Shown in pieces: positions 15,053 to 34,612 of a DNA stretch of 64,000 nucleotides; position 1 is the first letter of the stretch; every line of letters begins with the position of its first letter. The position numbers and the translations under genes are program-made. The notes under the pieces were generated by a model. The model was given only the letters and a program-made list of their open reading frames with translations. It ran no database searches and was not told where the DNA came from. The DNA comes from Levilactobacillus brevis (GTDB lineage Bacteria; Bacillota; Bacilli; Lactobacillales; Lactobacillaceae): assembly GCA_021383565.1 (NCBI GenBank), contig CP079699.1:1550001-1614000 (forward strand), in the 5' to 3' direction.

Positions 15053-15147
15053 AACTACCACCGCCTCAATTTATTTAGTTTCATCATAAACTGACCGAAC
15101 CAACAACACAAGTAATTCATCTTTCAGGTGATAACTAAAAAGCATAA

Positions 15148-15177
15148 AAAAAACCACCAACCGAAGTTGGTGGTTTT
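15148..15177 (-). terminator. Terminator of the cold-shock gene
   Basis: AACCACCAAC pairs with GTTGGTGGTT around CGAA, flanked by A- and T-runs. Confidence 0.9.
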
Positions 15178-15204
15178 TCACGACACGATTTAGGCTAATG
15201 TAAA

Positions 15205-15408
15205 TTAGTCAACTACCGTAACGTTAGCGGCTTGTGGGCCACGGTCGCCTTGTTCTACATCAAGGGATACGTGTTGGCCTTCTTCAAGCGTCTTGAAGCC
15301 TTCGCTGTTGATAGCAGAGAAGTGAACGAAAACGTCTGAGCCGTTTTCCAAAGTGATGAAGCCGTAACCTTTATCAGCGTTGAACCATTTAACAGTACCT
15401 TGTTCCAT
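15205..15408 (-). CDS. Cold-shock protein (CspA family)
   Basis: A 67-aa single-strand nucleic-acid-binding OB-fold RNA chaperone. RNP1 is KGYGFI (with Tyr rather than the usual Phe) and RNP2 is VFVHFSAI; start [14 protein letters not shown] is typical. ATG 15408 lies 10 nt after GGAGG; a frame extension upstream is untranslated leader. A leader of more than 70 nt precedes it, including TTCTTATAAGAA (a 12-bp palindrome near 15477-15488), as expected for a temperature-sensitive 5' UTR. Confidence 0.95.
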
Positions 15409-15601
15409 AAGAATGAAACCTCCATGCGCATAGCGCAATAATATTTGCATTTGAAAGCTGGGGTAAAAAGGAGCCATTCTTATAAGAACGTCGAGCCTTT
15501 AAAACTTCCGAACCATAAATACATTAACCATAGGATAACAGGTATTTCGCAGAATAGCAAATGCAAACTCCGATATTTTTAAACTATTTTGCAATAAGCC
15601 G

Positions 15602-25434: not shown

Positions 25435-26496
25435 CTAGGCCACCTCCGAATCGTTAGGATTTAAATGCGTAATGCTGATGCCGGCGTCCTGACAATACTG
25501 CCAAGCCGCAGCTAGTTTATCCGGTTCGCCGGACATGACCACAATCAAGTTCCCCAGTGGCGTATCCTGTAAAATCTCAACGTTTCCGTACAGGATGTTG
25601 GAGACCACGCCGTACCGCTTGTACAGTTCCGTAATCAGTGGCGCATCGGTGCTAGCGCCCACGTACTGCAGTTGAACCAACTGTTGACTGTCACTGAGTT
25701 GAAGCGAATCGGCCTGCCGGAAAATCTTTTCCAGCGCCTGATTGATCTGGGTCGCGGTATTGATGAAGTCTTGGGTCAACGGCTTTTGAGGCCGACTGAA
25801 AATAGAAACCAAGTCGCCACGTTCGATGATCTCGCCATCTTCCATGACGGCCACCTTGTTACAGATTTCCTTCACGGCTTCCATTTCATGGGTAATCAGG
25901 ACGACGGTTAAGCCCAATTCCTTATTCAAACGCTTCAACAGCGCCAGAATTGAGGAAGTTGTCTTCGGGTCCAAGGCACTCGTGGCCTCGTCACTAATCA
26001 GAATCTCGGGGTCATTGGCCAGCGCTCTGGCAATGGCCACCCGTTGTTTTTGTCCACCGGATAGTTGGGCTGGATAGTCCGTCGCCTTCTCGCTGAGGCC
26101 CACCAAGTCCAAGAGGTGCGCGACCTTTTGCTTGCGCTTCTCGTGAGACAACCGGCCCTTCAGCGGGTAACCAACGTTGTCCGCAATCGTACGGGAAGCC
26201 ATGAGGTTAAAGTGTTGAAAAATCATGCCAATCTTAGTCCGAGCCGTCCGTAACTCACGGGGCGAGAGGTCTAAGATATTCTGGCCGTTGACCACCACGG
26301 AACCAGCAGTGGGCCGCTGGAGCCGATTGATCACCCGGACTAAGGTACTCTTCCCGGCACCGGAATACCCAACAACACCGTAGATGTCGCCGCGTTCTAC
26401 CGTTAATGAAACTTTTTTGACGGCCTCGACCGTCTGCCCCTTGTTGTGGAAGGTGACGTCGATATCTTTTAATTGAATAATCGCTTCATTAGTCAA
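25435..26496 (-). CDS. metN: Methionine ABC transporter ATP-binding protein
   Basis: A 353-aa ATPase. Walker [10 protein letters not shown], signature LSGGQKQR, Walker [14 protein letters not shown] and switch His in LITHEM are complete. The C-terminal NIL domain (about 265-353, with [30 protein letters not shown]) binds methionine and inhibits the transporter. TTG 26496 follows AAGGAG by 9 nt and is preferred over the longer open frame (to 26568), whose extra N-terminus is unlike MetN. Transcribed in the order metQ-metN-metI. Confidence 0.95.
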
Positions 26497-26592
26497 ATCT
26501 TCGTTCTCCTTACTCGCCCTATGCTGGCAATTTTTCTCTCTACTTAATTTCCATGACCAGCGCCGCACGCTGAATCTTACTGACAGCGTTCA

Positions 26593-26636
26593 GGCACCGT
26601 GCTGTGAGGGTAACATCATCGGCACAGCGCAGTGCC
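26593..26636 (-). promoter_or_regulatory. Intra-operon hairpin between metQ and metN
   Basis: GGCAC (26593-26597) pairs with GTGCC (26632-26636), extended by GCTGTG with CACAGC. There is no T-run, so it is more likely an mRNA stability or processing structure separating abundant metQ mRNA from metNI than a terminator. Confidence 0.5.
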
Positions 26637-26727
26637 CGAAAGTCTTTAACGCGTAGAAGTTGGTTAAGTCACTAACATCCGTTATCATGTTAATTGTCTT
26701 TTACTTTCTTCTACTTATAATCGCTGT

Positions 26728-27543
26728 TTACCAAGCTGGTACGGATAAGCCGTGGAAGTACTTCTTGATTAACTTCTTAGTTGCTTCTGATTGGTAAGCC
26801 TTGACGATCTTCTTGTAAGTCTTGTTGTTCTTATCAGACTTGTTGGCCGCAATAATGTTGACGTACGGAATAGAGGCCTTGTTCAGCTTTTCCTTGTAAA
26901 TAGTTTCGCTGTTCGGCAACTTGGCTTCGGCAGCGAATTCGTTGTTGATAACGGCACCAGTCGCATCGCTCAATGAACGTGGCGTCTGGGCAGCATCAAC
27001 GGCAGTAATCTTCAAGTTCAACTTGTTTTGCGTGATGTTCTTAGGCGTTGGCAGTGCAACCTTGGAATCAACCTTGATTAAACCAGCGGATTGCAGTAAG
27101 TGTAAGGCCCGGCCTTCGTTAGTCGAATCGTTTGGAATGGTAATCTGGTCGCCCTTCTTGATATCAGAGACGCTCTTAACTTTCTTGGAGTACAACCGTA
27201 GCGGTGCGCGGACAGTCTTCCCGATGGAAACGATATCGGACTTGTGCGCCTTATTCCATTGGTCCATGAAGTACGTGTGTTGGAACGAGTTGATATCAAT
27301 TTCGTGGTTCGTCAACGCCGCGTTAGGCTGGTTGTAATCGGTGAAGGTCACCAGCTTGATGTTGATGCCCTCCTTCTTCAACTTCTTTTGGATAGGTTTC
27401 CAGATCTTTTCGTCGGAGCCCATGATCCCAACTTTAACCGTCTTGTTGCTGGAACTACTGCTGGATTTGCCACAACCGGCAACGATCAACAGTGGAATTA
27501 ATAAAACGAGTAGCCAACTAAAGCGTTTAAATGATTTCTTCAT
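26728..27543 (-). CDS. metQ: Methionine-binding lipoprotein MetQ
   Basis: A 271-aa NlpA/MetQ-type SBP anchored by the lipobox IVAGC at about residue 25. The Ser-rich linker SSSSSSN follows, then VKVGIMGSDEKIWKPIQKKLKKEGINIKLVTFTDYNQPNAAL, INSFQHTYFMDQW and the substrate-contact IPNDSTNEGRALHLLQSAGLI. ATG 27543 lies 9 nt after GGGG; TTG 27549 is too close to the site. Preceded by a T-box leader, so expression rises when tRNA-Met is uncharged. Confidence 0.95.
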   Translation of the reverse strand: MKKSFKRFSWLLVLLIPLLIVAGCGKSSSSSSNKTVKVGIMGSDEKIWKPIQKKLKKEGINIKLVTFTDYNQPNAALTNHEIDINSFQHTYFMDQWNKAHKSDIVSIGKTVRAPLRLYSKKVKSVSDIKKGDQITIPNDSTNEGRALHLLQSAGLIKVDSKVALPTPKNITQNKLNLKITAVDAAQTPRSLSDATGAVINNEFAAEAKLPNSETIYKEKLNKASIPYVNIIAANKSDKNNKTYKKIVKAYQSEATKKLIKKYFHGLSVPAW

Positions 27544-27611
27544 ATTCAAAATCCCCTTTATCCCAATTTAAAATAATTGCTTAATTCTTGCGAGAGAAAA
27601 CGGTGACCAAA

Positions 27612-27905
27612 AGAAAAGAGTCCGCTTCTAAATTAATAGAAACGAACTCTGTCGTGGTACCATTCTAATTCAAGTCAGCTGTTGCCTGACCCCTCATTAA
27701 CACTCGCCAGCTTGCGCCTTAAAGTGCGTGCACGATAATGAGTGCCAAGCATCACCACTTCATCACGAGGACTTAGCGGTGCCAATTCATTTCAGGCCAT
27801 CTTCACCCCGCCGTGAGTTACTCGCTTTCAGCAAAACGCAAGCTCTCTTGAAACCCGTAACGGTGGTTACTCTCCTGATCACATTGTTTTCAATCGCTTA
27901 ATTTA
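27612..27905 (-). promoter_or_regulatory. T-box leader (methionine type) ahead of metQNI
   Basis: The transcript reads TGGTACCACG near 27659-27652, the conserved T-box bulge that pairs with the tRNA acceptor end. It is followed by a terminator, AGAGT..GTTTCT / AGAAGC..ACTCT with TTTTCTTTT (27650-27612). About 290 nt of upstream structure contain the stem I. An ATG followed by A, in the text CTGAAATGAATTGGC near 27802-27788, is the probable specifier. Methionine is also what the downstream genes transport. Met T-boxes are known in Lactobacillales. Confidence 0.85.
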
Positions 27906-27911
27906 ATTGCA

Positions 27912-27940
27912 AGTCTAATGCAACTTTAATCCGATGTCAA
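27912..27940 (-). promoter_or_regulatory. Promoter of the metQNI T-box leader
   Basis: On the minus strand TTGACA (27940-27935), 17-bp spacer, TAGACT (27917-27912). Confidence 0.75.
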
Positions 27941-28051
27941 GGAAAACATTCAATAAATATTTTTATATTAAGCCCGTCATACCGGCCTTTTGCCGCTACG
28001 ACTGCTTTAGAATCGGTTTCATAGCGTCTAAACTTCTCACGTAACTTTTAC

Positions 28052-28600
28052 TTATTCCGGTAAAATCGGTTGGCGTAGGAGACCAGCCGCCAGTAAAAAC
28101 ATGTGGGTGACGACCGGACCGACAAAACTAAATCCGCGCCGCTTTAAATCCTGAGCAACCGCCCGGCCAATCGTCGACTGATTGGTCAATTCATCCCGCG
28201 TTTGCGCTGGCAGGAGCAGTGGCGTCCCATCCACGAACGCCCACAGATAGGCGCCAAAACTGCCAAATTCCTGCTGAACTTTGAGGATGGCCCGGGCATT
28301 CTTCAAGACGGCCCGAATCTTACGCTGATTGCCAATCATCTCCGGATCGGCAGCAATCTCCGGGATCGCCACCTCATCGATCATCGCCGCCACTTTCGGA
28401 ATGGCCATTTCGGCAAAGACCCGCCGGTATACCGGAAGCTTGCTGGCGGCCGCCTGCCAGCTGAGGCCCACTTGAAAGACGCCAACCGTCAGTAATTCGA
28501 ATAAGACGTGGTCGTCGTGAGTGGGCGTGCCAAAATACGTGTGGTATTCCTGGACGCCATTCGTTTGCCAGTCGTGGCCATCGTCCGGTTTAATCGTCAT
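28052..28600 (-). CDS. Diverged TagI-family 3-methyladenine DNA glycosylase, lacking key residues
   Basis: A 182-aa HhH protein clearly of the TagI family (VLFELLTVGVFQVGLSWQ, IGNQRKIRAVLKNARAI, FGAYLWAFVDG, LKRRGFSFVGPVV). In E. coli TagI the base-binding Glu38 lies in LE-GQQAGLSW; here that position is Gly40. The zinc-snap ligands are also changed: the first Cys is His9 and the C-terminal NDHxxxxC is absent, the protein ending RQPILPE. A canonical paralogue is at 39380. It may be inactive, altered in substrate, or binding-only. The ATG lies after GGAGG at about 28606. Monocistronic. Confidence 0.85.
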   Translation of the reverse strand: MTIKPDDGHDWQTNGVQEYHTYFGTPTHDDHVLFELLTVGVFQVGLSWQAAASKLPVYRRVFAEMAIPKVAAMIDEVAIPEIAADPEMIGNQRKIRAVLKNARAILKVQQEFGSFGAYLWAFVDGTPLLLPAQTRDELTNQSTIGRAVAQDLKRRGFSFVGPVVTHMFLLAAGLLRQPILPE

Positions 28601-28797
28601 CGTGACATGCCTCCTTAAAGACCATCATAGCAAAGTCGGTTGATTTTGCCCAACCGTTTGCCTGTCCCGATGGCTTAACGCAAGTTATCGGTGAGATTAG
28701 CGTTTGGTCTAACCTCACCGGCAACTTCAATCTGGTTATCTTCGAACTTGCCCGGGTGCCCACCACCCAGGCTGAATGCGTTCGTTTATTTACAATC

Positions 28798-30438
28798 TTA
28801 CTTCATGTACGCGTACTTGTAGCTCCACTGCGTTCCAGCCGTGTTGTGGATAACGCCACGCACGTCCTTACGCTGAAGGTAGGCGTAGTTGGCCTGATAG
28901 AGCGGCGTAAAACTCTGCTGTTTATTAATCAGCTTGGCCGCCTGAACCATGTCTTGCCAACGGGCTTCATCGTTGCCGGCATCGGCCCCCTGTGCCTTAT
29001 CAATCAAGGCGTCGTACTGCTTGTTGGACCACTTTCCGTAGTTCAACGCATTTGAGCTCGTTGGAATCTGCAGGAAGGAAATTGGATCGTTGAAGTCGGC
29101 CCCCCAGTGCGAGAGATAGAGGTCAAAGTCCCCGCTGGTTGACCGGGACTGCGCCACCGAAGCCGGCACGTTATCAATCTTCAAGTTAAACCCACTCAGG
29201 TTCTTTTCCAACGTGCCCTTGAGGTACTGCGTCACGGTGCTGGCTGCGACGTCATCGTTACCAGCCATAATGTTTAGGTTAACTTTCTTAATGCCTAGCT
29301 GTTTCAACCCGGCTGCCCACTTCTTCTTGGCCAACGTTGGATTGTACGCCGTGGTATTCTTCACGACCTGTTGCTTGGCGAAGTCTTCGCCAGTCTTGGG
29401 ATCACTGGCCAAACCACTCGCCACAAAGCCGGTCGGGGTCACGGAACCATCCCCCAGAACCTTCTTCGTCAGCTGACTGCGGTTAATCGACAACGCAATG
29501 GCCTGCCGAATATTTTGATTGCTCATAATCCGCCGCTTCTCGCTGTTCGTATCCTTGAAGTTATACTTCAGGTGAATCACGATTGAATACGGATATTCCT
29601 TAAAGGCGCTGTTGTTCTTGTAATTCTTAACCTGTTCCGTGGACAGCTGCGCAAAGTCCAGCTTGTTATTTTGATACAAGCTCAGTCCAGTCTGAGGATT
29701 TGTGACCACCTGATAATTAATCTTCTGGAGCTTGACCACTTTCTTATCCCAATACTGATTATTCTTAACAAAGGACCACGTGTTCCCGGTCCCACTCCAG
29801 TTGGTAATCTTAAACGGTCCACTGTAGACCATGTACTGTGACTTGGTGGCATATTTCTTGCCATACTTGTTGACCACTTTTTCATTTTGTGGGGCAAACA
29901 GCGGATAGGCCATCAGAATCTTAAAGTAGGCAATCGGCTTGTCCAACTGAATCACCACGGTCTGCTTGTTCTTCGCGTGAATCCCAATGGTATCAGGGCT
30001 GGCCTTGCCCGCGATGATCTTATCCCCATTCTTGATGCCGGAGAACATGGTCGTATAGGAGGCCTTGGTCGCTGGCGTCAGCGTCCGCCGCCAAGAATAC
30101 ACGAAATCTTGAGTGGTAATCGGATCACCATTACTCCACTTGGCGTTGTCACGGATGTGGAACGTCCAGGTCTTCTTATCCTTGGAAACCTTGGCGGAAT
30201 CGGCCAACCCCGGAGCGACCTTCCCGTTCTTACCTAACCGATAAAAACTTTCAAAGACGTTCCCCGTCTGGCCATAACCCGTGGCCTTGGCCAAGTCGAT
30301 TGTGTCGAGCTGAGCCGTCGCGGGTAACCGTAAGACTTGCGATGGCTTAGTCGTTGAGGCGGATTGACCGCAGGCAGCTAGACCCAATCCTAATACCATA
30401 ACTGCCGCAACTAAGCCGATACTGGTCCATTTTTTCAT
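28798..30438 (-). CDS. Second OppA-family lipoprotein, behind a leader-peptide attenuator
   Basis: A 546-aa SBP with lipobox LAAC near residue 23. It has the OppA blocks KTWTFHIRDNAKWSNGDPITTQDFVYSWRRTLTPAT, YPLFAPQNEKVVNKYGK and IRQAIALSINRSQLTKKVLG. It ends AGTQWSYKYAYMK, parallel to GTQSNFKSAYFVK in the first OppA. ATG 30438 (MKKWTS...) is 11 nt after AAGGGAG; ATG 30447 is in frame but only 2 nt after the site. No permease genes are adjacent. A 34-codon Cys-containing ORF and an intrinsic terminator lie between promoter and gene. Confidence 0.92.
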   Translation of the reverse strand: MKKWTSIGLVAAVMVLGLGLAACGQSASTTKPSQVLRLPATAQLDTIDLAKATGYGQTGNVFESFYRLGKNGKVAPGLADSAKVSKDKKTWTFHIRDNAKWSNGDPITTQDFVYSWRRTLTPATKASYTTMFSGIKNGDKIIAGKASPDTIGIHAKNKQTVVIQLDKPIAYFKILMAYPLFAPQNEKVVNKYGKKYATKSQYMVYSGPFKITNWSGTGNTWSFVKNNQYWDKKVVKLQKINYQVVTNPQTGLSLYQNNKLDFAQLSTEQVKNYKNNSAFKEYPYSIVIHLKYNFKDTNSEKRRIMSNQNIRQAIALSINRSQLTKKVLGDGSVTPTGFVASGLASDPKTGEDFAKQQVVKNTTAYNPTLAKKKWAAGLKQLGIKKVNLNIMAGNDDVAASTVTQYLKGTLEKNLSGFNLKIDNVPASVAQSRSTSGDFDLYLSHWGADFNDPISFLQIPTSSNALNYGKWSNKQYDALIDKAQGADAGNDEARWQDMVQAAKLINKQQSFTPLYQANYAYLQRKDVRGVIHNTAGTQWSYKYAYMK

Positions 30439-30507
30439 AAAATCCATAGCTCCCTTATCCTCAAATTTAGTGGTGTGCAATCCCTAAATCCGTGTGAAAT
30501 GAGACAG

Positions 30508-30553
30508 AAAAAGGCGGGTTCCCCCTCACGTCGATCGTGATGGGAAACCCGCC
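30508..30553 (-). terminator. Leader terminator ahead of the second OppA gene
   Basis: On the transcript GGCGGGTTTCCC (30553-30542) pairs with (GG)GGAACCCGCC (to 30513), with an inner CGTGA/TCACG pairing, followed by TTTTT. It lies 70 nt before the oppA start, so it is an attenuator, not the end of a gene. Confidence 0.85.
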
Positions 30554-30592
30554 TACAGGGACAACAATTACTGTTGTCGTCGTTATGTAGTA

Positions 30593-30697
30593 CTACTGGT
30601 TAGCCGGAAAATCACGATTGAACGCAACGCAAACAAGCACGTTACATTGGCAACATGCGGCTAACATCATTTGGTTTTGGTTGGCGTTGAGCATCAT
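30593..30697 (-). CDS. Cys-rich leader peptide, 34 aa
   Basis: An AAGGAGGG site at about 30714-30707 precedes ATG 30697. The frame encodes MMLNANQNQMMLAACCQCNV-LVCVAFNRDFPANQ and stops at TAG 30595-30593. Cys lies at codons 15, 16, 18 and 23. A consensus -35 promoter lies upstream, and a terminator lies 40 nt downstream of the stop. Small size, a strong ribosome-binding site, repeated rare-amino-acid codons and an attenuator downstream are the hallmarks of a regulatory leader peptide; the sensed amino acid would be cysteine. This is inference from sequence; I know of no described homologue. Confidence 0.7.
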   Translation of the reverse strand: MMLNANQNQMMLAACCQCNVLVCVAFNRDFPANQ

Positions 30698-30708
30698 CGT
30701 GATTTTCC
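30606..30708 (-). repeat. Inverted repeat enclosing the leader peptide
   Basis: GGAAAATCACGAT (30606-30618) and ATCGTGATTTTCC (30696-30708) are a perfect 13-bp inverted repeat. On the transcript the first half overlaps the leader peptide's ribosome-binding site and start, the second its last codons. Confidence 0.9.
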
Positions 30709-30748
30709 CTCCTTACTTTTTATAATCGAATTGGATTGCACAAGATTA

Positions 30749-30777
30749 AAGATAAACTCTTTCACGTCGTTTGTCAA
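30749..30777 (-). promoter_or_regulatory. Promoter of the leader peptide-oppA unit
   Basis: On the minus strand TTGACA (30777-30772), 17-bp spacer, TATCTT (30754-30749). Confidence 0.7.
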
Positions 30778-30859
30778 AAGAAATAAATCGGTGACTAACA
30801 TCTCAAACAGGAAAACTGTATACTGGAGATAGTTGAATTAGTAGAAAGGATTTGAACGT

Positions 30860-33109
30860 ATGGACATCGAACGAACGCTTGCTGCATTGACGTTACCGGA
30901 GAAGGCCGCCATGGTCTCCGGCAAGAATTTTTGGTACACGGCCGCTGTAGACCGCTTGGGCATCCCCGCCTTAATGATGACGGATGGCCCTTCCGGCTTA
31001 CGGAAGCAGGACCCGAACGCTTCCGCCGGAGATATTACGGACTCCGTCAAAGCCATCACGTATCCCGCCGCGGCTCTCAGTGCCAGCTCGTGGAATCAGG
31101 ACCTGATGAAACAGCTGGGGGAACACCTAGGAGAAGAAGCGCGGGCCGAACAGGTTAGTCTCTTGCTGGGACCCGGGGTTAACTTGAAGCGTTCCCCACT
31201 CGGCGGGCGGAACTTCGAGTATCTCTCAGAGGATCCCCTGGTTGCTGGTAAATTAGCCAGTGCCTACGTCGAAGGTGTCCAGTCCCAACACGTCGGCGTG
31301 TCGGTCAAATACTTCGTGGCCAACAATCGCGAAAACCAGCGTTTCACGGCTTCTAGTGATATGTCGGCACGGACCTTACGGGAACTCTACTTACGGACGT
31401 TTGAAATCATCGTCAAGGCGGCCTACCCAGCAACGATTATGACCTCGTATAACCGCACGAACGGTGTGCTCAACTCACAGAACCGCCACCTCTTGCGTGA
31501 TATTCTGCGTGATGAGTGGGGCTTCCACGGCGCCATCATGTCCGACTGGGGCGCAGTGGCCGACCATGCCGCCGCTCTAACGGCTAGCCTGGATCTGGAA
31601 ATGCCAGGGAAGGGCCAAGCCTCGGTCGACGAAATCATTCGGGCCGTAGAAACCGGCGAACTGGATATCGGAACGCTGAATAAGGCGGTCCGACACCTGC
31701 TACACGTCGTGGACAAGTGGAAGCCTGCGCCGACCGCTCAGACCTACGACCATCAAGCCCACCACGATTTTGCGCGTAAGCTGGCGGACGATAGTATTAT
31801 TTTGCTGAAGAATCACCAACAAGAACTGCCACTCAATCCTAAGCAGGCTGGTAAGGTGGTTGTCATTGGTGAATTGGCCGAACACCCACGTTACCAAGGG
31901 TCCGGTAGCTCCCACGTCAATCCAACAAAACTGGTTACACCGCTGGAAGCGCTCAAGAACACCGGTCTACAAGCCGACTACTACCCTGGCTATCAGCTGG
32001 ACGAAGGCGAAACGGATGACCGCTTGGCGGACGCCGCACTCGCTGCAGCCAAGGATGCCGATCACGTCATCATTTTCGCCGGTTACCCAGCTGCGGCCGA
32101 ATCAGAAGGCTTCGACAAAACGTCGATCATGTTACCGGAAAATCAAACGGATCTGATTGGCAGTCTGGCGAAGTTGAACGCACACACAACAGTCGTCTTG
32201 CAAAACGGATCAGCCGTTGAAATGCCTTGGATTCACACGGTGGCTGCCGTGGTTGAAACTTACTTAGCCGGTGAAGCCGTCGGGGAAGCTACCTGGGATA
32301 TTCTGACCGGAGCGGTCAATCCTTCCGGTCACTTGACGGAAACCTTCCCGATTCGGTTGACCGATACGCCAATGGCCCCAACCTTTGCACAGGACCCGCG
32401 GCACGAACTTTACTCCGAAGGCATCTTCATGGGGTACCGGTACTACGATACTCACGAAATGCACGTGCTCTATCCCTTTGGTTACGGTCTGAGCTATACT
32501 GAATTTGAGTTCACCAATTTGGCCGTCAAGCAAAGCGAACACGGTGCCACGATTACGTTCGATGTGACCAACACCGGCGATCGGCCTGGCCAAGCGGTTC
32601 CTCAACTTTACGTGGCAAACCACACGTCGCACGCACCAATGCCAACCAAGGAATTACGCGGCTTCACTAAACTAGCCGTTGAACCGGGCGAAACTAAGCC
32701 GGTCACGCTAACCTTAGACCGGCAAGACTTTAGCTGGTGGCGGCAAGGGAAACATCGTTGGCAAGCCGACTCCGGTGATTATGAAATCATGGTCGGTCAA
32801 TCTTCCCGCGACATTCGGTTGCAGGCCAAGCTGACGATGGACTTCAAGAACTCACCGGCACCAGTCACGGATGAAACCTACCTGACAATCGTAGCCAGTG
32901 ACCAACGTTTGCTGAAACTCTTCAAGCAGTACGTGATTGCACCGGCCAATCAGGACGACAACAGCCTATTGAGCGCTACCGACGCTAACGGTGAGCCAAC
33001 CGTTCTGCAGGATAAGATGTTTCTCAACATGCCGTTACGCGCCTTGACTGCCCAAGGCGTGCCAGCAGATTCAATCGAAGACTTTATCCAAGCCGCGAAC
33101 GCACGGTAA
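30860..33109 (+). CDS. Beta-glucosidase, GH3 family
   Basis: A 749-aa intracellular (no signal peptide) glycoside hydrolase. It has the N-terminal (beta/alpha)8 domain with GVSVKYFVANNRENQRF, the nucleophile D229 in IMSDWGAV, the GH3 C domain with FAGYPAAAESEGFDKTSI (acid/base Glu region), and a fibronectin III-like C-terminal domain (GQAVPQLYVANHTSH). Likely hydrolyses beta-glucosides and perhaps plant glycosides. The start ATG follows AAAGGA. An adjacent transporter or phosphotransferase gene is absent. Perfect terminator at 33123. Confidence 0.92.
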   Translation: MDIERTLAALTLPEKAAMVSGKNFWYTAAVDRLGIPALMMTDGPSGLRKQDPNASAGDITDSVKAITYPAAALSASSWNQDLMKQLGEHLGEEARAEQVSLLLGPGVNLKRSPLGGRNFEYLSEDPLVAGKLASAYVEGVQSQHVGVSVKYFVANNRENQRFTASSDMSARTLRELYLRTFEIIVKAAYPATIMTSYNRTNGVLNSQNRHLLRDILRDEWGFHGAIMSDWGAVADHAAALTASLDLEMPGKGQASVDEIIRAVETGELDIGTLNKAVRHLLHVVDKWKPAPTAQTYDHQAHHDFARKLADDSIILLKNHQQELPLNPKQAGKVVVIGELAEHPRYQGSGSSHVNPTKLVTPLEALKNTGLQADYYPGYQLDEGETDDRLADAALAAAKDADHVIIFAGYPAAAESEGFDKTSIMLPENQTDLIGSLAKLNAHTTVVLQNGSAVEMPWIHTVAAVVETYLAGEAVGEATWDILTGAVNPSGHLTETFPIRLTDTPMAPTFAQDPRHELYSEGIFMGYRYYDTHEMHVLYPFGYGLSYTEFEFTNLAVKQSEHGATITFDVTNTGDRPGQAVPQLYVANHTSHAPMPTKELRGFTKLAVEPGETKPVTLTLDRQDFSWWRQGKHRWQADSGDYEIMVGQSSRDIRLQAKLTMDFKNSPAPVTDETYLTIVASDQRLLKLFKQYVIAPANQDDNSLLSATDANGEPTVLQDKMFLNMPLRALTAQGVPADSIEDFIQAANAR

Positions 33110-33122
33110 TCATAAAAAGATA

Positions 33123-33160
33123 GACGAGCTCGAAATCAATTGATTTCGAGCTCGTCTTTT
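33123..33160. terminator. Terminator between GH3 and the GNAT gene
   Basis: GACGAGCTCGAAATCA (33123-33138) pairs perfectly with TGATTTCGAGCTCGTC (33141-33156), two-base loop, then TTTT. Confidence 0.92.
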
Positions 33161-33167
33161 GCTGTCT

Positions 33168-33614
33168 TTAAGTTAGCGATAGCACCATGTCCAGATGGGG
33201 AATTCCCGTGTCCAAATAGACCGCACTCGTTGGCTGAAAGCCAAACGAGGCGTAAAACTTCTGCAGATACGCCTGAGCCTGAATGACAATAGCCGTGGCT
33301 TCTGGATACGTGCGGCGAGCCGCCGTCAGAGCCATGGTCACCAGTCGCCGTCCGGCCCCCGTACCACGATGGTTCGGGGCGACCAACACGCGACCGATGC
33401 GTACTTGCTGGCCCTCATCGATCAATCGGGCGTAAGCGGTGACGTGTCCCATCGCGTCTTGGGTAAACAAATGCTGGGCTTGGACGTCTAAATCATCAAC
33501 TTCCTGATACGCACACGCCTGTTCCACCACGAATACGGCCACCCGGACGCGATAAATTTCAAACAATTCGGTGGGCGTAAGTTGGGCGAACCCTTTTTGC
33601 TGAAAGTCTGACAT
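33168..33614 (-). CDS. GNAT acetyltransferase, ElaA-like
   Basis: A 148-aa N-acetyltransferase. ELFEIYRVRVAVFVVEQACAYQEVDDLDVQAQHLF is the ElaA signature; acetyl-CoA binding is in VRIGRVLVAPNHRGTGAGRRL (R/Q-x-x-G-x-G/A). Substrate is unknown. ATG 33614 is chosen; the TTG at 33617 is the only alternative. It lies 15 bp downstream of the choloylglycine hydrolase gene and is probably in its transcript. Confidence 0.88.
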   Translation of the reverse strand: MSDFQQKGFAQLTPTELFEIYRVRVAVFVVEQACAYQEVDDLDVQAQHLFTQDAMGHVTAYARLIDEGQQVRIGRVLVAPNHRGTGAGRRLVTMALTAARRTYPEATAIVIQAQAYLQKFYASFGFQPTSAVYLDTGIPHLDMVLSLT

Positions 33615-33628
33615 CAATCCACCCCCGC

Positions 33629-34612
33629 CTAATTCAAATGCTTAATATGGTTCTGATGGGCCAGCGGATATTCAACTGGCGTATCCCAATCCGTTAGCAT
33701 CTTATCCGTTATCTCGACGCGCTGTAACTCCAAGTTATCGTAAGGTTCCATGTAGTAGGCCCGTTCGTTCAGGCTCATGTAACCCCGATACTGCGTGTAG
33801 TCACTGCTGCCATCCGGCTTGAGTTTAACACCCTTAGGAATCGTCACGCCATCCAGCAGATGTTGCAACAAGTTCATGGTCGTTGGTGTATCGGCAGTTG
33901 GCCGGCTGTAGTGCTTGTTAAAGACCGTGCGCACAAACCGTGAAGGAGACGTGTAATCCCCAGGCATCCCAAAGGCCCCCGTTCCCGGCCCAACCGTCTT
34001 GAGATTGAAACCTTGATAGTCGTGGAGGGGGCGCGTATCCGCCACCAAGGTGCCGTACGTGCTCAGGTTCTGCAGGTGCCAGCTTAACTGGGGCGAGTTA
34101 GCCATGACCCCGACTGGATCCTCAATCAAGTGCAAGTCGTGATCGGTGGCTTCTAACACCGCCGTATCGCCAGTCGGATCACTGAAAATGAAGTGTAACG
34201 GCACCGTAATTCCCAGTAGTGCGACGGGTTTATCCACAATCTGAATCTCCTTAATTAGCTCACGTAAATCCGCAACGCTCCGAGCATTTCCGAGCACCCA
34301 AGCCGTCAGGTCATGGGGGGCAATTCCCAGCTTATCGGCCGGTGCGGACTGCGCGTACTGGGCGTAATCCGAGAAATACAGGGCGGCCGCGCCCAGACCA
34401 AACTCATTAACCCCATCAACAAACATGTAGTGACTCAGGTTACGCCCGGCCCCGACAAATCCAAATTTCGTCGTAAACTCACCGGCATCGCCTTGAATCT
34501 TCTGGTTCCGGGGCATGAAGATCGGCTGACCACCCAGCTCAAATCCAAAGTCCATGGTGCGAGCCAGGAAGTGGTCTCCACGGCTATTCTCGTAAGTCAA
34601 ACTCGTACACAT
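33629..34612 (-). CDS. Choloylglycine hydrolase family (bile salt hydrolase / penicillin V acylase-like)
   Basis: A 327-aa Ntn-hydrolase cleaving amide bonds of conjugated bile salts or related N-acyl compounds. ATG 34612 puts the nucleophile Cys at position 2 (MCTSLTYENS), as required after Met removal; ATG 34621 would bury it. R18, D21 (LARTMDFGF), Asn in VMANSPQLSWHL and the family tail are present. Bile salt hydrolase and penicillin acylase cannot be told apart by these motifs. The ribosome-binding site is modest (GGGA). Confidence 0.88.
   Translation of the reverse strand: MCTSLTYENSRGDHFLARTMDFGFELGGQPIFMPRNQKIQGDAGEFTTKFGFVGAGRNLSHYMFVDGVNEFGLGAAALYFSDYAQYAQSAPADKLGIAPHDLTAWVLGNARSVADLRELIKEIQIVDKPVALLGITVPLHFIFSDPTGDTAVLEATDHDLHLIEDPVGVMANSPQLSWHLQNLSTYGTLVADTRPLHDYQGFNLKTVGPGTGAFGMPGDYTSPSRFVRTVFNKHYSRPTADTPTTMNLLQHLLDGVTIPKGVKLKPDGSSDYTQYRGYMSLNERAYYMEPYDNLELQRVEITDKMLTDWDTPVEYPLAHQNHIKHLN

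Follow-up and report, generated by a model that had tools for sequence, protein, structure and literature searches.

Within a window of 64,000 nucleotides (nt) from Levilactobacillus brevis, the gene for an OppA-type peptide-binding lipoprotein is, judging from sequence comparison, very probably controlled by a ribosome-mediated, cysteine-specific transcription attenuator of the trp type. A preliminary description of this DNA had proposed cysteine-responsive attenuation here, and the proposal is supported by the anatomy of the leader, its conservation, the co-variation of its alternative helices and the recurrence of Cys leaders across genera. Ribosome stalling, the cysteine signal and polymerase pausing are the parts of the model that we infer. 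The elements of the locus all lie on the minus strand and are listed by window position.

30749-30777, minus strand: sigma-70 type promoter, TTGACA-17-TATCTT (TTGACA at 30777-30772, 17 nt, TATCTT at 30754-30749).
30727-30742, minus strand: 5′ strand of the outer helix P0, at or beside the inferred mRNA 5′ end; partner 30492-30474.
30707-30714, minus strand: Shine-Dalgarno (SD) sequence of the leader ORF, AAGGAGGG.
30684-30708, minus strand: segment 1 (GGAAAATCACGAT plus CAACGC), overlapping the SD and the start codon; partner segment 2.
30593-30697, minus strand: leader ORF of 34 codons, MMLNANQNQMMLAACCQCNVLVCVAFNRDFPANQ, with Cys codons at 15, 16, 18 and 23.
30637-30658, minus strand: hairpin of the Cys codons themselves, 9 bp, with nearly invariant letters and followed by a T-rich stretch.
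30606-30630, minus strand: segment 2 (GCGTTG...ATCGTGATTTTCC), with segment 1 or segment 3 as alternative partners.
30560-30578, minus strand: small middle hairpin between the ORF and the terminator, three pairs predicted from the alignment.
30526-30550, minus strand: segment 3, the terminator 5′ arm and loop, which is the 3′ strand of the antiterminator and includes ATCACGAT at 30541-30534.
30508-30553, minus strand: intrinsic terminator with T-tract (stem 30553-30513, T-tract 30512-30508).
30474-30492, minus strand: 3′ strand of the outer helix P0, between the terminator and the oppA ribosome-binding site.
28798-30438, minus strand: oppA, a lipoprotein of 546 aa in the SBP_bac_5 family (Pfam); the closest solved chain by sequence is 5kzt.

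On re-reading the minus strand, the promoter, the SD and the 34-codon ORF with Cys codons 15, 16, 18 and 23 were found where the preliminary description had placed them, and its three 8-mers at 30703-30696, 30618-30611 and 30541-30534 were exact. Transcription is predicted to start near 30742, which gives a 5′ leader of approximately 45 nt ahead of the ORF. The terminator stem begins 39 nt past the ORF stop (the earlier figure was 40 nt), and its T-tract lies the expected 70 nt before the ATG at 30438. This ATG is most likely the oppA start because it is conserved in relatives; the program-made ORF list begins the frame at TTG 30480. The label "orphan" fits: oppA is flanked by a divergent gene of glycosyl hydrolase family 3 and by one for a methyladenine glycosylase, and no oppBCDF-like frame was seen by eye among the ORFs of 26000-34000. 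The transcript 30742-30505 folds to −88.6 kcal/mol compared with −58.7 (s.d. 4.5) for dinucleotide shuffles, i.e., 6.7 s.d. below them, and the fold of the terminator region is 5.5 s.d. below its shuffles (z −5.5).

The leader is conserved throughout the genus. Searching with a leader profile recovered the ORF in all 35 Levilactobacillus genomes examined (one of them only 72% complete), so that the lack of conservation which the preliminary description had named as refuting its proposal is not seen. There is one strong copy per genome, with a second match at E 0.00996 in one genome (G316). The profile gave 25 named loci, of which 23 carry the label Levilactobacillus and two Lactobacillus sp., and in the 24 loci examined for context the leader lies between oppA and the divergent frame of glycosyl hydrolase family 3. 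Each of the 35 genomes has 4-5 Cys codons in its leader, and the motif A-C-C-x-C-N is invariant in the 24 aligned leaders (alignment A1, 24 rows) and seen in all 35. The leader peptide has no Pfam or NCBIfam family match. A TTGACA-17-TANNTT promoter is present in 33 of the 35 genomes (L018 and L099 returned no match) and the terminator in 34. In the exception, L016 (read as L. cerevisiae DSM 100836, L070), a deletion has taken out the terminator and left the ORF and both segments 1 and 2 untouched; this is a natural variant, presumably a constitutive one.

The pattern of change along the ORF differs on the two sides of the Cys codons. From the start codon to the Cys core, gaps in the nucleotide alignments are multiples of three; this result rests on the alignment gaps, and the start positions were not counted as evidence of frame because the script chooses only starts that are in frame with the core. 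Between the Cys core and the next conserved stretch (TTTGCG) the distance is 25, 26 or 27 nt, such that all three frames occur, and thus the stop codons differ by lineage while the RNA letters are kept. The Cys-codon stretch itself is almost frozen, synonymous sites included. Selection seems to preserve the reading frame as far as the Cys codons, and beyond them the RNA.

For the alternative helices, the 34 terminator-bearing sequences were reduced to 12 representatives (similarity < 0.88), and the duplex energy of each sequence's own segment pair was compared with that of permuted pairs in 20,000 permutations. No permutation was as good for segment 1 with segment 2, and only two were for segment 2 with segment 3 (5′ arm and loop of the terminator); the loop by itself gave 1/20,000 and the stem by itself 1,384/20,000. 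Two control pairs were flat (segment 1 with the terminator arm, 10,761/20,000; Cys region with the terminator arm, 3,378/20,000), and a third, the Cys region with segment 2, was not clean at 23/20,000, so that the test is not perfectly specific. Mean helix energies are −29.4 kcal/mol for 1:2 (35 sequences) and −19.5 kcal/mol for 2:3 (34 sequences). Independently, RNAalifold on alignment A2 (34 rows, of which L019 and L021 are, by eye, out of register at segment 1) recovered helix 1:2, the Cys hairpin, three pairs of the middle hairpin and the terminator, with 41 consensus pairs, 19 of them showing compensatory changes on both sides. The complementary segments, whose covariation the preliminary description had asked to see examined, thus co-vary in both helices across the 12 representatives. 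Its picture of pairing between 8-mers stands to that extent, although the antiterminator extends past 8 bp (GCGTTCA, for instance, joins the loop of the terminator, and AACC pairs with GGTT in its stem), and the outer helix had been missed.

That outer helix, P0, joins the inferred transcript start (30742-30727) to 30492-30474, just before the oppA ribosome-binding site. In nine representatives with a short spacer, only 14 of 20,000 permutations equalled the pairing of the sequences' own segments. In four loci (L018, L019, L021 and L099) oppA is set further from the terminator by approximately 100 nt or more of additional sequence, which replaces the P0 partner, and the representatives L018, L019 and L021 were omitted from the test for this reason. 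A paired change from GTGC/GCAC to GTAC/GTAC is found in L014, L015 and L082. P0 may serve in 5′-end protection or in translation control of the read-through mRNA.

Staged folding of 34 species, with the RNA made up to the terminator loop, indicates what a ribosome would have to do. The mean probability of pairing between segments 3 and 2 is 0.00 without a ribosome, 0.01 when a ribosome sits at the stop codon and 0.92 with a ribosome on the Cys codons and all upstream RNA excluded, in which case the antiterminator forms in 34/34 species. With only the footprint of the stalled ribosome masked, the pairing probability is 0.00 and the antiterminator forms in 0/34. Segment 1, comprising the SD and start codon, lies approximately 40 nt upstream of the first Cys codon, and a ribosome stalled on Cys therefore does not cover it. 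Something else is needed: the start site might be occupied by a ribosome that is queued or initiating, or the block might be topological or kinetic. The earlier idea that a ribosome stalled on the Cys codons prevents the first pairing accordingly holds when the upstream RNA is excluded and fails for the footprint by itself.

The proposed mechanism would then run as follows. When charged Cys-tRNA is ample, or when the leader is not translated, segment 2 would be paired with segment 1 or lie under the ribosome at the stop codon, leaving segment 3 free; the terminator would form and oppA expression would be low. When charged Cys-tRNA is short, a ribosome would stall on the Cys codons, and segment 1 would be kept unpaired, most simply because the following ribosome occupies the strong SD and start codon. 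The freed segment 2 could then pair with the 5′ arm and loop of the terminator, and RNA polymerase would continue into oppA. Once read-through has occurred, the 5′ end of the message could pair ahead of the oppA ribosome-binding site, which may protect it. The Cys-codon hairpin and the T-rich stretch after it are a putative RNA polymerase pause hairpin, an element known in trp leaders.

Beyond the genus the peptides do not align, and leaders were therefore found only through oppA orthologues (52% identity or more). The leader profile matched 73 of the 292 genomes of the order that lie outside the genus at E ≤ 1; of the 27 matches whose locus was read (L028-L054), none looked leader-like by eye, and several appeared by eye to be antisense to His-rich genes. 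Upstream of the orthologues we counted as a Cys leader any SD-led ORF of 8-60 codons with at least three Cys within 600 nt. In a first sample of 35 loci (25 + 10), 24 pass this rule, 17 of them with at least four Cys, compared with 1/10 paralogue loci in relatives, 9.7% of 700 shuffles and 5.2% of 212 window tiles. Counting by eye, which admits an unusual start or SD or only two Cys, raises the figure to 29/35; the remainder comprise two loci with T-boxes and four, all of genus g86, without a leader. A second sample of 40 loci from 38 new genomes, 1 to 6 per genus, was chosen among the matches listed, with genera g86, g78, g81 and g91 not resampled and one region (L221) incomplete at a contig end. 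Here 33/40 pass, 30 with at least four Cys, versus 11.1% and 4.0% of 800 shuffles. The loci that fail number seven: four of g90, one of g92, one of g20 (L236) and the incomplete L221. In the own genome, 0/10 other SBP_bac_5 genes pass, some of the start codons picked there being doubtful.

By genus, the Cys rule is passed in 11 other genera, and g81 and g78 are added by eye; the four g86 loci have neither a Cys leader nor a T-box. Together with Levilactobacillus, this tally covers 17 genera with oppA orthologues among the matches listed. Cys leaders are present, for example, in Lactobacillus amylolyticus, L. intestinalis and Ligilactobacillus salivarius UCC118, and none was found upstream of the Latilactobacillus curvatus orthologue. 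The peptides are unrelated in sequence and have Cys runs in common (CCC, CCxCC, CCCC), Cys making up 112 of 778 residues (14.4%) in 26 of them. Some of the passes may be due to chance: L198 is doubtful, and at L117 the ORF that satisfies the rule is a mini-ORF, the likely leader there being the 7-codon MLMQCCC. Of the passing loci, 22/24 and 29/33 have a terminator downstream, counts made without a shuffle control; by the rule used it is absent at L117, L176, L220 and L233-L235, four of these six belonging to g20. Helix 1:2 beats shuffles in 14/22 loci (≤5/200 shuffles as good) and helix 2:3 in only 8/22 (≤10/200 as good), and thus the detailed architecture is established for Levilactobacillus only. 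The maximum pairing probability of the terminator arm is often high in other genera without any ribosome and was set aside as uninformative.

Several loci depart from the common arrangement. At L176 (g20) the Cys leader overlaps the inferred oppA start and no terminator was detected, which suggests translational attenuation there. L117, L123, L130 and L138 have a second Cys mini-ORF (e.g., MKKACCCRMLRGSI, MAKSCCCWMMTKN) between the terminator and oppA, possibly an additional translational Cys sensor. L120 has a Cys-rich leader whose SD is spaced for ACG, with no ATG, GTG or TTG start at the right distance, which would reflect either an unusual start or decay. At L196, on pMP118 of Ligilactobacillus salivarius UCC118, the orthologue of oppA immediately precedes sufC and sufD, which are Fe-S cluster (sulphur) genes. 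An oppA of L. salivarius Lv72, which may or may not be this orthologue, is described in the available text of one study as rising more than 50-fold on contact with HeLa cells (PMC6962182); cysteine supply might play a part in that rise.

T-boxes occupy the corresponding position in some lineages. They precede oppA orthologues in g90 (6/6 loci examined) and g92 (1/1), and the specifier loop region of these seven reads GAA(A/G)AUG(A/G); the specifier is apparently AUG, for Met, with the register a matter of judgement. The covariance model (RF00230) finds no T-box at 30508-30777, where this candidate was rejected, and a scan of the window returned no Rfam element at gathering threshold at the focal leader. 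Elsewhere in the own genome there are 24 T-box matches, and by coordinates four SBP_bac_5 genes other than the focal oppA lie behind T-boxes; a simple T-box letter pattern had found none at 11 SBP genes of this genome, including the four before which the covariance model places them. One match lies close to oppA:

27635-27891, minus strand: T-box of 80.3 bits, under the Rfam gathering score of 93, with specifier region GAAGATGG.

This T-box precedes a metQ-like lipoprotein gene (26728-27549), and its specifier appears to read as Met, like those of the seven oppA T-boxes. The window also contains a match to the cspA thermoregulator RNA (RF01766) at 15147-15509 on the minus strand (88.2 bits, gathering 78).

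Among other explanations, the strongest is that the leader acts by cysteine-dependent translational attenuation, controlling ribosome access to its own SD or to that of oppA, with termination secondary. We consider this unlikely. It would account for segment 1 being the leader's own SD and start, for the outer helix ending shortly before the oppA ribosome-binding site and for the overlapping leader of L176, but the terminator is kept in 34/35 genus genomes and its loop co-evolves with segment 2. Appreciably less probable is a nascent-peptide sensor, in which the Cys-rich peptide itself would arrest the ribosome, or would sense redox state or a metal, rather than Cys-tRNA charging being read. 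The invariance of A-C-C-x-C-N within the genus would be expected of such a sensor; between genera, however, the arrangement of the Cys residues varies (CCC, CCxCC, CCCC, the 7-codon MLMQCCC), and the invariance within the genus extends to synonymous sites, which points to the RNA hairpin.

It is also very improbable that the ORF merely couples ribosomes to transcription, with the terminator fixing oppA at a low level and no cysteine signal involved. The near-universal terminator of the genus agrees with a constitutive leader of this kind, which nevertheless gives no reason for Cys runs to recur in unrelated leaders before the same gene, nor for the antiterminator to co-vary. That the ORF encodes a functional Cys-rich peptide, such as a pheromone or metal binder taken up by OppA, is suggested by its position next to a peptide-binding protein gene. 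We regard it as extremely improbable, given that no peptide is conserved between genera beyond the Cys runs, that the C-terminal frame is free to shift and that no Pfam or NCBIfam family was matched. Cysteine-specific transcription attenuation remains the preferred reading.

A need for cysteine from outside would give the attenuator a physiological setting. The own genome has no cysKM match, whereas all 14 control genomes match (11 over the cut-off), and CysE exceeds the curated cut-off in 0/35 genus genomes, the best score being 192.6 bits (G326) against 210.65; this cut-off is strict, passed by 8/14 control genomes, and the search returns many general acetyltransferases. On these two results outside sources of cysteine should matter, and an external supply is plausible on the strength of the cysKM and CysE routes, which were the two examined. 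OppA may import Cys-containing peptides. The generic name "oppA" would then gain a likely physiological role, and the attenuator would be a new regulatory route for sulphur nutrition, shared by about a dozen genera of lactobacilli from food and the gut.

A broader history can be proposed, for which we see the chances as evenly balanced. An old, Lactobacillaceae-wide cysteine attenuator would act on one peptide-binding protein, its peptide turning over while the Cys codons stay; it would have been swapped for a Met T-box in some lineages and perhaps for a translational leader in one, and in Levilactobacillus a 5′-end helix formed after read-through would couple antitermination to message stability or translation. 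If so, OppA would be a dedicated scavenger of sulphur amino acids in cysteine-requiring lactobacilli. The natural replacement series (Cys leader, Met T-box, none, terminator deletion) offers material for studying how attenuators evolve.

Ribosome-mediated transcription attenuators of the trp, his and leu type are known from enterobacteria, and amino-acid control of transcripts in Gram-positive bacteria is mostly credited to T-boxes and riboswitches. Like the enterobacterial leaders, the focal leader has an SD-led ORF with a run of codons for the sensed amino acid, mutually exclusive 1:2, 2:3 and 3:4 helices, an intrinsic terminator and a probable pause hairpin. It differs in that it is predicted to sense Cys, that its target is a peptide-binding lipoprotein rather than a biosynthetic operon, and that it has an extra helix at the 5′ end. 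In trp the stalled ribosome lies on segment 1; here segment 1 comprises the SD and start codon of the leader, the first Cys codon follows about 40 nt downstream, and a ribosome stalled on Cys would leave segment 1 unoccupied.

In the open-access literature, which leaves most subscription journals outside, we found no description of a Cys-codon leader of lactobacillar oppA, in keeping with the preliminary description, which knew of no such system in lactobacilli. The terms searched for such a leader are absent from the available text of a paper on Cys/Met regulation in L. paracasei (PMC6004538), and the available parts of a T-box survey (PMC2494555) and a terminator survey (PMC2965389) do not mention one. 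Cysteine attenuation as such is already known from actinobacteria and Rhodobacterales; of the known Cys systems compared, none, as far as the consulted portions of the sources go, is in lactobacilli or precedes a peptide-binding gene.

One counterpart is uORFC-8-2, for which, in the available text, attenuation by Cys is predicted, with tandem Cys codons at about 14-15 in the first stem and a U-run terminator, exclusively before cysS in Rhodobacterales and only in Alphaproteobacteria (PMC8632094). The two share Cys codons at about 14-15 within a leader hairpin that is followed by a terminator, but uORFC-8-2 is described in that text with two stems and no antiterminator (PMC8632094), whereas the focal leader has a co-varying antiterminator and precedes oppA in Lactobacillaceae. 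Cys-run leader peptides without terminator hairpins are reported before actinobacterial cys operons (PMC1262725), Cys-rich uORFs have been found in mycobacteria (PMC4633059), and the cysteine genes of M. smegmatis are stated, citing Canestrari 2020, to have been shown to be under translation attenuation (PMC13236596), each according to the parts of these papers available. These leaders resemble the focal one, so far as described there, in being short ORFs with Cys runs and a proposed cysteine response. The mycobacterial ORFs are there called leaderless, were found without a terminator hairpin, are described as acting translationally or possibly through Rho, and target cys genes; the focal ORF, in contrast, has an SD, a 5′ leader of about 45 nt and a terminator. 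In the Gram-positive S. aureus, a Leu-rich leader peptide is likewise described, in the text available, as an attenuator, of branched-chain amino acid synthesis and with leucine as the amino acid (PMC5794164). A further parallel is to the T-boxes of g90 and g92, which act on the same gene and use transcription antitermination governed by amino-acid supply, but do so through direct tRNA binding and with an apparent Met specifier, AUG.
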